In this document: one piece after another, positions 12,366 through 42,031 of the stretch
Position numbering within the stretch: the stretch's first letter is position 1
Layout of the letters: each line of letters opens with the position of its first letter
Source of the DNA: Amycolatopsis sp. FBCC-B4732
Lineage (GTDB): Bacteria > Actinomycetota > Actinomycetes > Mycobacteriales > Pseudonocardiaceae
DNA length: 64,000 nucleotides
Direction: 5' to 3'
NCBI RefSeq assembly: GCF_023008405.1
Contig: NZ_CP095376.1
Span: forward strand, 3,124,001 to 3,188,000
Notes under the pieces: model-generated
What the model was told of the DNA's origin: nothing
The model's input: only the letters and a program-made list of their open reading frames with translations
The model's database searches: none
Position numbers and translations under genes: made by a program

Positions 12366-13337
12366 TCACGACCCCGCGCCCAACCCGTCCAGGGCCCGGT
12401 ACGTCCGGTTGCTCGCCGCCGCCGCACGCTGCTCACGACCCGTCGCCTCGATGTAGTTCTGGCTCGTCGCCAAGCTCGCGTGCCCCAGCAACGCCATGAT
12501 CTCCGACGCCGTCGCCCCGTCCTCTGCCAACCGCGTCGCGAACGTGTGCCGCAACGCGTGCAAGTTCGCCCCCGCCGGCACCCGGTCGTGCAACCCCGCA
12601 CCCCGGTAACACGACTTCACCAGGTACTCCAGCGCACCCCGCCCGATCGGCTCACCCGCCCGGTCCAGCAGCAACGGCGAACCAGGGGAGGACCGCACGT
12701 TCGGGAACCGCACCCGGCACGACTCCCGGTACCGCTCGATCAGCTCCGCCAGCACCGGCTGCACCGGGATCGACCGATCCCGGCTGCCCTTGCCCTTCAC
12801 GTGCAACCGCAGCTCACCCGCACGCCCCACCAGCGACCGCGACGTCAGCGCCCGCATCTCCGCCGCCCGCAACCCCGCCACCAGCCCCAGCGCGATCACC
12901 AGCACGTCCCGCTCCGGCCACGGATCCCGCGCGCGCCGCGACCCGGCGGCGGCCGCCGACAGCAGCTGCTCCGGGGTTTCCTCACCCCGCAACGGCTTCG
13001 GCGTCAACGCCGGCGTCCGCGGCCGCGCCACCGCACCCATCGGGTTGCCCGGCAGCAAGCCGTCGGCCACGCAGAACGTCAGGAACTGGTTCCACGTCGA
13101 CCACGCCCGCAGCACCGAGCTCTTCGCGTGCCCGTCCGCGAACGCGCCGAACGCCGACCGCAGCGCCGGTCCGGTCAGCTCGGCCACCTCCAGGTCCTCG
13201 GCGGGGCGGCCGAGCTCCGAAACCAGGAGAGTGGTGATCCCGGCGAGGTCCCGCCGGTAGGCGTCGGTGGTGTGCGGCGAGTCCTTGCGCGGCCGGCGGG
13301 CGGCGAAGAAGGCTTGCTGTGCCTCGGAAAGCCTCAT
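12366..13337 (-). CDS. Tyrosine recombinase (XerC/D-like) next to dif
   Basis: 323 residues from ATG 13337 (MRLSEAQQAFFAARRP); in-frame ATGs up to 13409 lie inside the palindrome at 13385-13426 and would add a non-conserved-looking leader. N-terminal SAM-like core-binding domain (~8-100), then the catalytic domain with Arg157 (GLVAGLRAAEMR), Lys181 (HVKGKG), H260-x-x-R263 (HALRHTFATRL), His286 (LLGHASLAT) and Tyr295 (SQNYIEA), i.e. the full RKHRHY set. The size matches Xer proteins rather than phage integrases, and there are no phage genes nearby. The canonical XerC/XerD of the genome are not in view, so this may be a third, dif-linked recombinase. Confidence 0.88.
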   Translation of the reverse strand: MRLSEAQQAFFAARRPRKDSPHTTDAYRRDLAGITTLLVSELGRPAEDLEVAELTGPALRSAFGAFADGHAKSSVLRAWSTWNQFLTFCVADGLLPGNPMGAVARPRTPALTPKPLRGEETPEQLLSAAAAGSRRARDPWPERDVLVIALGLVAGLRAAEMRALTSRSLVGRAGELRLHVKGKGSRDRSIPVQPVLAELIERYRESCRVRFPNVRSSPGSPLLLDRAGEPIGRGALEYLVKSCYRGAGLHDRVPAGANLHALRHTFATRLAEDGATASEIMALLGHASLATSQNYIEATGREQRAAAASNRTYRALDGLGAGS

Positions 13338-13384
13338 GTGGATCTTGTACCGCACAGCACCGACAATTCCGGTGCCCGGGTCCC

Positions 13385-13426
13385 CCGACATTTCATGCAT
13401 AATTGCCATTATGCATGAAATGTCGG
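13385..13426. repeat. 42-bp perfect AT-rich palindrome, dif-like core
   Basis: Left arm CCGACATTTCATGCATAAT (13385-13403), loop TGCC, right arm the exact reverse complement (13408-13426). Read as a Xer site it has arms TTCATGCATAA and TTATGCATGAA around a 6-bp spacer TTGCCA, matching the GCATAA-N6-TTATG layout of bacterial dif sites. It lies 47 bp upstream of the preferred recombinase start, so it could be a recombination site, an autoregulatory operator, or both. Its AT content stands out sharply from the surrounding DNA. Confidence 0.85.
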
Positions 13427-13867
13427 TTTAGCCCGGAGTGGCCCCCTGGGGGATCCGGGTCTTTCGCGAAGGCGATTTCAGGCCCCGAATCGCCTCTCGA
13501 TGTCCACGACGGGGATGCGCACGTATGTTCGAGTACCCGGCCGGCCGTGGGTCGCCTCAGGAGGCCGGATGACCCGAGGCGACCCACGACGACGTTTTGC
13601 GTCGTCGACCTGACATCTCCGGAGACCCACTTGACCCTAGAGTTTCGTCACCGTGACGTTTTGGGGTCGAGTGGCAGGACATCGGCTCTGCGGCTCCAGG
13701 GGATGCTCCTGCGACCCCCAGAAGGCGCCTTCAGGGTTGCGTGGCGCCTGACGCGGGAGAACGGCGGACCGTAAACCTCAGGAGAAGCCGTCCTGGCGAA
13801 GCGAACACACCACCGCCGGGCCCCGGCTTTGGCACCCCTCCTGGCTTCCCGTCGCAGCGTGTCCCTA
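13427..13867. other. Non-coding structured spacer between palindrome and dif
   Basis: About 440 bp without a credible gene: the only open frame (13403-13774, plus) lacks the high third-position GC of real genes here. It holds a 13-bp inverted repeat CGTGGGTCGCCTC / GAGGCGACCCACG (13546-13558 and 13576-13588, 17-base loop), and abutting it CGACGACG / CGTCGTCG (13587-13594 and 13600-13607). Further short dyads follow (GTCACCGTGAC near 13650). A terminus-specific DNA structure or an untranslated RNA are possible; nothing proves either. Confidence 0.6.
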
Positions 13868-13895
13868 AGTGCCGATAATGTACATTATGTCAAGT
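13868..13895. other. dif: Chromosomal dif site (XerCD recombination site)
   Basis: 28 bp made of AGTGCCGATAA (XerC-side arm), TGTACA (spacer) and TTATGTCAAGT (XerD-side arm). It agrees with the actinobacterial dif consensus I recall, TTSRCCGATAATVNACATT followed by ATGTCAAGT, at all positions except the first three. It ends four bases before the stop codon of the SRPBCC gene. It implies a circular chromosome and places this window at the replication terminus. Confidence 0.88.
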
Positions 13896-40987: not shown

Positions 40988-42031
40988 GTGCCCGACCTGG
41001 AACCGGTGATCGACGCCGCCCTCGCCGCCGCCGGCCCGCAGGACCGGCTCGCGCTGCTCGACGAAGCCGCTGCCCGCCACGTCGACGGGCAGCGGCCGCC
41101 CAACACGCTCAAGGCCTACGCCCAGGACTGGCAGGTGTGGCAGGACTACACCGCCGAGGCCGGGATCCCGCCGCTGTCGGCGACGATCGGGGCGCTGACC
41201 GGGTTCGTCGTGTGGCTCGAACGGGGGCGCACGCTGCGCCCGGACGAACGCGCCGTGCCCGAAGTGCCCGAGCGGGCCGCGCCGGCGGCGCCGTCGACGA
41301 TCGAGCGGCGGCTCACCGGGGCGCTCGCCGGGCTGCGGCACCACAAGGTCGTCGTCGACCCCGAAGCGAGCCGCGCCGCCTGGCGCGCGTTGAAGGGGTA
41401 CCGGCAGCGGCTCGCCCGGGAGGGCGTCCAGCGCGGGCGCGGCAAGGCCACCATGGTGACCCTCGCCGACCTGCGGGCGATGTCGCGCGCCTGCCCGGAC
41501 ACCCTCGCCGGCGCCCGCGACCGGGCGATGCTGCTGATCGGGTTCCCGATCGCCGCGCGCTGCTCGGACCTGGCGAACCTGCTGGTCACCGACGTCGAGC
41601 CGGTCGACGACCGGGGGCTGGCGGTGACCGTGCGGCACGGCAAGAGCACCGGCGACATAGTCGTGCCGCGCCGCGAAAGCCCGGAAACGGACCCGGTGCG
41701 GGCGTGGCACGCGTGGCGCTCCGGCGCCGGGATCAGCGAGGGCCCCGCGTTCCGCCGGGTGGACCGGCACGGCAACGTCGGCGAGCCCGCGTTGAGCACT
41801 ACCGGCGTCAACCAGATCCTGACCCGGGCCGGGGTCCGGGCGGGCCTGCCGTACCCGGTGACGGGGCACTCGCTGCGGTCCGGGTTCGCGACCGAGGCGC
41901 GCCGGGCCGGCGCGGACGACCTCGCCATCGCCGACCAGGGCCGCTGGGTGCGCGGCAGCCGCGCGCTCTACGAGTACATCCGCCGGGTCGACCAGTGGAA
42001 CGACAACGCCGCGGGCGTGCTCGACCTCTGA
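40988..42031 (+). CDS. Tyrosine recombinase/integrase
   Basis: 347 residues; GTG start. N-terminal core-binding domain (PNTLKAYAQDWQVWQDYTAE, TIERRLTGALAGLRHHK) and a catalytic domain with Arg191 (FPIAARCSDLANL), Lys219 (VRHGKS), H294-x-x-R297 (GHSLRSGFATEA), Trp320 (QGRWVRGS) in the second His position, and Tyr328 or 330 (RALYEYIRR). The pattern is that of integrases and resolvase-like recombinases of plasmids and chromosomes. No attachment-site repeat, excisionase or phage gene is seen beside it, so the target is unknown. Confidence 0.88.
   Translation: MPDLEPVIDAALAAAGPQDRLALLDEAAARHVDGQRPPNTLKAYAQDWQVWQDYTAEAGIPPLSATIGALTGFVVWLERGRTLRPDERAVPEVPERAAPAAPSTIERRLTGALAGLRHHKVVVDPEASRAAWRALKGYRQRLAREGVQRGRGKATMVTLADLRAMSRACPDTLAGARDRAMLLIGFPIAARCSDLANLLVTDVEPVDDRGLAVTVRHGKSTGDIVVPRRESPETDPVRAWHAWRSGAGISEGPAFRRVDRHGNVGEPALSTTGVNQILTRAGVRAGLPYPVTGHSLRSGFATEARRAGADDLAIADQGRWVRGSRALYEYIRRVDQWNDNAAGVLDL

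Follow-up and report, generated by a model that had tools for sequence, protein, structure and literature searches.

A dif-like symmetric palindrome and a third Xer-type tyrosine recombinase as a probable single-recombinase system beside dif in Amycolatopsis and related actinomycetes

In the 64,000-nucleotide stretch of Amycolatopsis sp. FBCC-B4732 DNA analysed here (the window), a symmetric dif-like palindrome and the tyrosine recombinase gene next to it are probably the target and the enzyme of a dedicated single-recombinase Xer-type system that works beside XerC, XerD and dif. We give this reading, with a chromosomal role that is probably dimer resolution at the terminus and with an additional plasmid branch, a probability of about 0.6. 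The pair is very likely functional, and we put slightly better than even odds on its chromosomal job being terminus dimer resolution or the unlinking of sisters beside XerCD. The original prediction, made from the sequence of the window, had suggested an undescribed single-recombinase terminus system. A symmetric site of its own, an enzyme distinct from XerC and XerD and retention beside dif were all found; the terminus inversion that it also suggested was not seen and is not expected of a single-copy site. A search of the open-access literature, without bioRxiv, returned no description of this recombinase-site pair in the titles and opening lines of abstracts that it listed. The features of the locus are as follows.

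13385..13426, no strand: symmetric dif-like site, an inverted repeat of 19+4+19 bp with centre TGCC
12366..13337, minus strand: third tyrosine recombinase of Xer type, 323 aa if translated from its likely true start
13338..13409, minus strand: in-frame extension of the recombinase open reading frame, probably untranslated, with a conserved promoter-like block, TGTCGGTG...GTACAAGATCCAC, immediately ahead of the ATG
13646..13658, no strand: small palindrome CGTCACCGTGACG, between the site and dif, a neighbour rather than a part of the system
13868..13895, plus strand: canonical dif AGTGCCGATAATGTACATTATGTCAAGT, a 28-mer and the sole dif in the genome

The two arms of the palindrome (13385-13403 and 13408-13426) are 19 nt each and 100% complementary, with a 4-nt loop, TGCC, between them. 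It had been described as a perfect palindrome of 42 bp, which is correct for the arms and not for the centre, where the bases are unpaired (38 of the 42 bases pair). Its reading as an Xer site with arms of 11 bp around a 6-bp spacer was borne out (TTCATGCATAA-TTGCCA-TTATGCATGAA, spacer TTGCCA). A search of the genome, a single contig of 10.19 Mb, found the palindrome core only once, and the core that it had been said to have in common with dif was confirmed: with at most one mismatch, the dif core GATAATNNNNATTATG matched only dif and the palindrome genome-wide. In the window the site gave one match at up to three mismatches, against a mean of 0.00 in 100 shuffles. The palindrome lies 441 bases from the dif 28-mer, close to the predicted 0.46 kb, and 47 bases separate it from the downstream ATG 13337, where the recombinase gene probably starts. 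The dif of the window is spelled like the dif suggested for Frankia in the available text of PMC3025954.

The full open frame of the recombinase (12366-13409, minus strand) starts within the palindrome. Judged from sequence comparison, the true start is likely ATG 13337, because of where similarity to the orthologs begins, the conservation of the ATG and of a GTACAAG block before it, and the in-frame stops upstream. When the longer reading is used, many orthologs align only from residue 15 or 24 onwards. The ATG stands at codon 25 of that reading in 71 of 71 genus loci, preceded by the same GTACAAG block in 70 of them, and 35 of the 71 have an in-frame stop within the 24 codons before the position of ATG 13337. 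The six catalytic residues noted in the prediction are complete (R157, K183, H260, R263, H286 and Y295), and the R-K-H-R-H-Y set is intact in 188 of 188 aligned loci. Pfam detects the catalytic domain only (Phage_integrase).

The enzyme is neither XerC nor XerD. Against the NCBIfam XerC and XerD models the window protein scored 143.3 and 116 bits, respectively, and failed both cut-offs (335.15 and 329.6). The genome's own XerD (C1:1434647) passed the XerD cut-off with 345.2 bits, and its own XerC (C1:6122589) reached 297.8 bits, which is under the cut-off of 335.15 and still far higher than the score of the window protein. The latter shares 30-31% identity with each of the two enzymes. These sub-cut-off scores, together with the genome's own XerC and XerD elsewhere, ruled out the ordinary XerC or XerD; since both of those are encoded elsewhere, the window enzyme is a third Xer-type recombinase. 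By sequence it is also neither XerS (46 bits; cut-off 267) nor archaeal XerA (79 bits; cut-off 220), and among solved structures the chain nearest in sequence is that of a XerD (1a0p, E 2e-14).

Within Amycolatopsis the gene and the palindrome are retained together. Among 80 genomes of the genus, the recombinase gene was present in 71, the strict palindrome in 69 and both in 69. Relatives that keep the recombinase and lack the palindrome, which the prediction had named as evidence against itself, are nearly absent: 2 of the 71 are without the strict form, and both have an altered one (L128, L146). In the nine genomes without the gene, the palindrome is missing too. We found dif in eight of these nine, and within 1.5 kb of it there was no half-site in seven and a single GGATAA in one. 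The strict site occurs as a single match in 66 of the 69 genomes that have it; G066 and G103 have a second strict match elsewhere, the pair in G002 stems from overlapping contig ends, and the wider pattern gives a second match in G012 as well. Site and dif both lie in the stretch at 69 of 71 genus loci, with the orientation of dif constant. As for the remaining two, L147 is a contig end whose dif is on its other contig (L082), and in G101 dif lies ~4.2 kb from the altered site. Synteny, which had been proposed as a check, showed the recombinase and its palindrome conserved near dif across the genus and in other families.

We also observed a second perfect Amycolatopsis palindrome, with spacer GAGC, beside a 709-aa HTH protein (L085:3038, G066:C55). 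At the second sites of two Amycolatopsis genomes (L083 and L085), no related recombinase was found within 3 and 6 kb, respectively.

Beyond the genus, the gene was called at E up to 1e-40 and the site by the pattern TGSATAAN6TTATSCA. Among 397 genomes of the order, 121 had gene and site, 3 the gene only, 5 the site only and 268 neither; among 394 genomes of the class, the corresponding numbers were 32, 1, 4 and 357. The reversed site pattern, used as a control, matched 0 of 397 and 1 of 394 genomes. Fisher tests of this co-occurrence, which ignore kinship among the genomes, were extreme; because site and gene are often adjacent, linkage can account for much of it, and the genomes are also not independent of one another. 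At the threshold used, the gene is absent from 9 of 80 Amycolatopsis and 361 of 394 class genomes, and the site occurs almost only in genomes with the gene. We infer from this co-occurrence that the site belongs to the enzyme.

In three of the site-only genomes of the order (G160, G284, G340), the contig ends at the site, just where the gene would be expected to start, and the other two (G239, G255) are mycobacterial. The gene-only genomes of the order comprise a gene fragment (G395), a locus with an altered site (G436, L233) and G404. In the class, the single gene-only genome (G659) has an altered site (L275), and the site-only genomes are G239, G255, G497, with a 4.9-kb contig holding site and dif, and G761. 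In family f1, which holds Amycolatopsis, the site was found in 51 of 51 genomes with the gene and 0 of 28 without it. Eighteen of these 51 genomes (Pseudonocardiaceae) carry a more distant gene copy of 49-53% identity, and each of the 18 has a site match somewhere in the genome; in 14 of them, neither site nor dif lies in the stretch searched on the upstream side (5 kb; 14 kb in four). At L207 (G291), too, neither was found in 5 kb upstream, although this genome has one site. Kribbella proteins (P0026, P0028, P0037 and others) are 76-79% identical to the window protein, above several Pseudonocardiaceae genera, which suggests lateral transfer of the gene.

On chromosomes the site is tied to dif. 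At loci with one site and one dif, the distance between them was 328-999 bp in Amycolatopsis (median 486; 69 loci), 259-1044 bp in other f1 genera (median 293; 14 loci), 281-1417 bp in Micromonosporaceae (median 571; 69 loci, 65 genomes) and 300-951 bp in family f31 (median 471; 19 loci), or 0.26-1.42 kb overall in 172 loci of 168 genomes. The Micromonosporaceae set holds four genomes twice, and in the f31 set G620 appears twice (L338 and L383). Left out of these distance counts were loci at which the site or dif lay outside the stretch, was altered or had an off-pattern spelling (L146, L147, L207, L319, L320, L323, L326, L338, L343, L275-L278, L281, L384 and L078). We found no canonical dif close to the site at the f31 loci L275-L278, L281, L343 and L384, where 1.5 to 14 kb were searched, or within 3 kb upstream at L320 (Salinispora oceanensis). 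We considered L320 as a recombination junction and rejected this, as its upstream homology breaks ~30 bp outside the site core and not in the spacer. The orientation of dif relative to the gene is opposite in Micromonosporaceae and Amycolatopsis; thus, the neighbourhood is not one frozen block. Because the site lies a few hundred bases from dif, a role at the terminus is the most likely one.

The layout of the site is kept across families in clade-specific spellings.

Amycolatopsis: TGCATAAT-N4-ATTATGCA
Micromonosporaceae: TGCATAATAT.CCTTATGCA
Family f31: TGCATAA-N6-TTATGCA
Other f1 genera: TG[CG]ATAAT...TTAT[GC]CA

In 51 of 71 Amycolatopsis sites the arms agree at all 11 positions; elsewhere this is less frequent, and many sites match at 7-9 of 11. 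The 6-bp spacer of the site is palindromic in 0 of 183 loci, a count that leaves out G230 (L397), which has a palindromic spacer 1.7 Mb from the gene with no dif near. The spacer of dif is palindromic in 61 of 69 Amycolatopsis, 2 of 14 other f1, 19 of 70 Micromonosporaceae and 1 of 19 f31 loci. Sites with like arms have their direction in the spacer, and those with a symmetric spacer have it in the arms; with identical arms nothing else gives the site a direction, and an asymmetric spacer is therefore needed. The contrast between the two kinds of spacer is that of one genus, because dif spacers outside Amycolatopsis are mostly not palindromic either.

Among close relatives, the site spacer was found in both orientations (Amycolatopsis loci L075-L077, L084 and L086-L152), an example from nature of a spacer inverting between short perfect repeats. 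On the Amycolatopsis gene tree, a quick tree with many weak branches, the four spellings account for at least 8+2+1+1 flips. We dropped these flips as proof of recombination: they occur mostly in sites with perfect arms, so a switch of the replication template in a hairpin explains them equally well. The long palindrome had also suggested a telomere resolvase. That reading was rejected, as the spacer is not palindromic.

If the pair is a single-recombinase system, four copies of the one recombinase would synapse two sites, carried by the sister chromosomes of a dimer or by two plasmid copies, with one protomer bound to each of the like 11-bp arms. Cleavage would occur where the arms meet the 6-bp spacer, and strand exchange would follow; where the arms are identical, the asymmetric spacer alone would set the direction of the site. 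On chromosomes, the pair would form a second terminus system, probably in the FtsK zone, for dimer resolution or the unlinking of sister termini. Such a system would recombine its sites in an FtsK-dependent manner and may resolve dimers. On plasmids it would resolve multimers and could occasionally trap modules between two sites. Against this reading, no recombination product was seen, and the cell already has the means to resolve dimers in XerC, XerD and dif.

The closest known counterparts are XerH/difH and XerS/difSL, in which, according to the available text of PMC2731167, a single tyrosine recombinase acts on its own dif-like site, which may adjoin the gene and lies near the terminus. Like XerH/difH of Helicobacter and Campylobacter and XerS/difSL of streptococci, the window pair consists of one recombinase and its own dif-like site near the terminus; it has a complete catalytic set, two arms around a 6-bp spacer and one site per chromosome. 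It differs from them in that its genome keeps XerC, XerD and dif, so that its enzyme is not the sole Xer. Because XerH/difH and XerS/difSL stand in for XerCD, we do not place the pair in their class. The excerpted text of PMC9765430 describes XerL/dif of Legionellales as another system with a single recombinase, and Coxiella carries xerL on a plasmid; unlike the window genome, according to the same excerpt, the XerL order had no other known Xer/dif, and the XerL site does not lie beside a second, canonical dif. The ATAA-N6-TTAT layout and the terminus position are those of actinobacterial XerCD/dif, as given in the available part of PMC3025954, but XerCD are two enzymes on two different arms. 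On large plasmids, a recombinase adjoining its own site is said to be usual in the accessible portion of PMC5357621; unlike those recombinases, pairs of the window type are mostly chromosomal and tied to dif.

If the single-recombinase reading is correct, one terminus is served by two recombination systems simultaneously, whereas the known single-recombinase Xer systems replace XerCD. It would then be testable why the cell keeps both, be it for timing in mycelial growth, sister unlinking, safety from elements that exploit XerCD or plasmid traffic. Actinomycete genetics would also gain a compact symmetric recombinase-site combination, and there would be a clue to the way in which defence genes may gather beside dif.

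Relatives of the window protein were also found on plasmids, in 84 of 72,556 PLSDB records at E up to 1e-10 (32 Mycobacterium, 18 Rhodococcus and 7 Mycolicibacterium), the better ones being ~35-40% identical to it. We looked in 14 selected plasmid loci for palindromes of the [AG]TAAN6TTA[TC] type whose arms match at 9 or more of 11 positions. In nine of them such a palindrome lies up to 1 kb upstream of the gene with its arms respelled, for example TGCTAGATAA and ACGTGGATAA; in the other five none was found in 2-3 kb on either side.

Three stretches in Mycobacteriaceae hold defence-type genes between two sites, counting pairs of known position less than 20 kb apart; outside this sample are a pair 99 kb apart in G203:C1 and second matches in G012, G223, G358 and G459. 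On the G203 chromosome, two sites 0.9 kb from dif bracket matches to QatA, QatC and QatD, with no QatB match in the bracketed stretch (L388:5189-11435); the recombinase relative of this genome is on a separate 191-kb replicon. On plasmid p1 of M. gordonae (L518:6509-16692), two sites bracket AbiEi/AbiEii, a NACHT-type ATPase and a DUF2290-helicase pair, and the recombinase lies just outside. The third is a 17-kb plasmid stretch seen at its ends only (L390, L080): a ThiF protein lies 3.7 kb in from one end, and the opposite end has NB-ARC and TPR proteins. In all three cases the two bracketing sites have different spacers. Beside the sites of the two mycobacterial site-only genomes, G239 has two defence-candidate matches, and in G255 two genes beside the dif-near site have no PADLOC or Pfam match.

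Modules between Xer-type sites are also found in the pdif modules of Acinetobacter plasmids, as far as the available descriptions of these go. Those use the host XerC and XerD, unlike the sites here, which match the third recombinase. Spacers of pdif modules vary.

The bracketed genes permit a wider proposal, possible but rather doubtful: a second full Xer system in actinomycetes that acts at the terminus near dif, resolves its own plasmids and, in Mycobacteriaceae, moves anti-phage defence modules between sites on plasmids and beside dif. The same plasmid records and the three bracketed stretches would also fit a system that is basically one of plasmids, for multimer resolution or for exchange of modules and between plasmid and chromosome, and that became fixed on chromosomes, where the terminus site serves as a docking place, as for pdif modules or elements that exploit Xer, and not for dimer resolution. 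We consider this unlikely. The single strict match in 66 of 69 Amycolatopsis genomes and the retention beside dif across whole genera look like housekeeping. The bracketed stretches number three, one of them seen at its ends; the G255 genes are without a match, and the bracketing spacers are unlike in each case.

The small palindrome between site and dif bears on a different explanation, in which the large palindrome is a terminus element bound by another protein and the recombinase merely shares its history. The small palindrome CGTCACNGTGACG was found at 68 of the 69 Amycolatopsis loci, close to dif in 7 of the 8 genus genomes without the recombinase, and in 7 of 14 other f1, 0 of 70 Micromonosporaceae and 0 of 19 f31 loci. 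It is a dif-linked element that tracks dif and not the recombinase. The large palindrome behaves likewise in that it tracks dif better than it tracks the gene. Unlike CGTCACNGTGACG, however, it is gone where the gene is gone (0 of 9 genus and 0 of 28 family genomes), it accompanies the gene at 9 of 14 plasmid loci, which have no chromosome terminus, and it keeps the Xer-site layout with clade-specific spelling. A role for some other protein is thus very unlikely.

The prediction had offered a simpler alternative, that the palindrome is the gene's operator, and its position in most Amycolatopsis and Micromonosporaceae loci would suit an operator or promoter element through which the recombinase or another regulator controls the gene. 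The distance from the site to the aligned gene start has a median of 76 bp in Amycolatopsis (maximum 1155), 88 bp in other f1 genera (maximum 1600) and 51 bp in Micromonosporaceae (maximum 269, at L233, a partial alignment), and symmetric arms would fit a dimeric repressor. In f31, however, the median is 2711 bp and the maximum 6910 bp, while the site stays 0.3-1 kb from dif. Of eight f31 intervals between site and gene, seven contain the same 780-residue gene and six the same 364-residue gene, which we take, from inspection by eye, to be phosphoketolase-like and acetate-kinase-like. Two f31 genomes (G620, G628) have the site downstream of the gene, and in G092 and G074 ~1.1 and ~0.4 kb of other sequence with open reading frames separate the gene from an intact site. 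The promoter-like block stays with the gene and not with the site. An operator must stay with its promoter and the site does not; therefore, the site does not act as operator of the gene. These loci contradict that alternative. We rejected it as the sole function of the palindrome on the separation of site and gene, and we hold it to be highly improbable as an explanation.

Equally improbable is a decayed integrative element at dif that left an integrase and its attachment site, a reading to which an integrase-like gene beside a core site near dif and the possible lateral transfer suggested by the Kribbella relatives lend themselves, but which conflicts with the complete catalytic set in 188 of 188 loci, the single dif and the scarcity of phage relatives. 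As predicted, phage genes were absent from the three neighbours in a Pfam scan, which are a GDPD phosphodiesterase, an AHSA1-type protein and a transglycosylase-type protein. The best matches to the window protein in a phage collection were 28-29% identical, and 21 viral contigs that match the palindrome (GC 33-50%) held no related recombinase in the stretches examined. A phage integrase with its attP was rejected on the lack of phage relatives and of phage genes among the three neighbours. A 56% copy of the gene stands at the end of three IMG/VR contigs, and both site and dif fall within them; we do not regard this as phage cargo and read it as a boundary call.

Elsewhere in the window, a second tyrosine-recombinase domain, for which no link to the palindrome was seen, lies at 41468-41980 on the plus strand (G000:C1:3165468-3165980) in a 350-aa open reading frame (Phage_integrase, 42.5 bits). 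The GC skew of the window flips sign at the locus, from -0.18 at 10-14 kb to +0.14 at 14-18 kb, and varies elsewhere in the window too.
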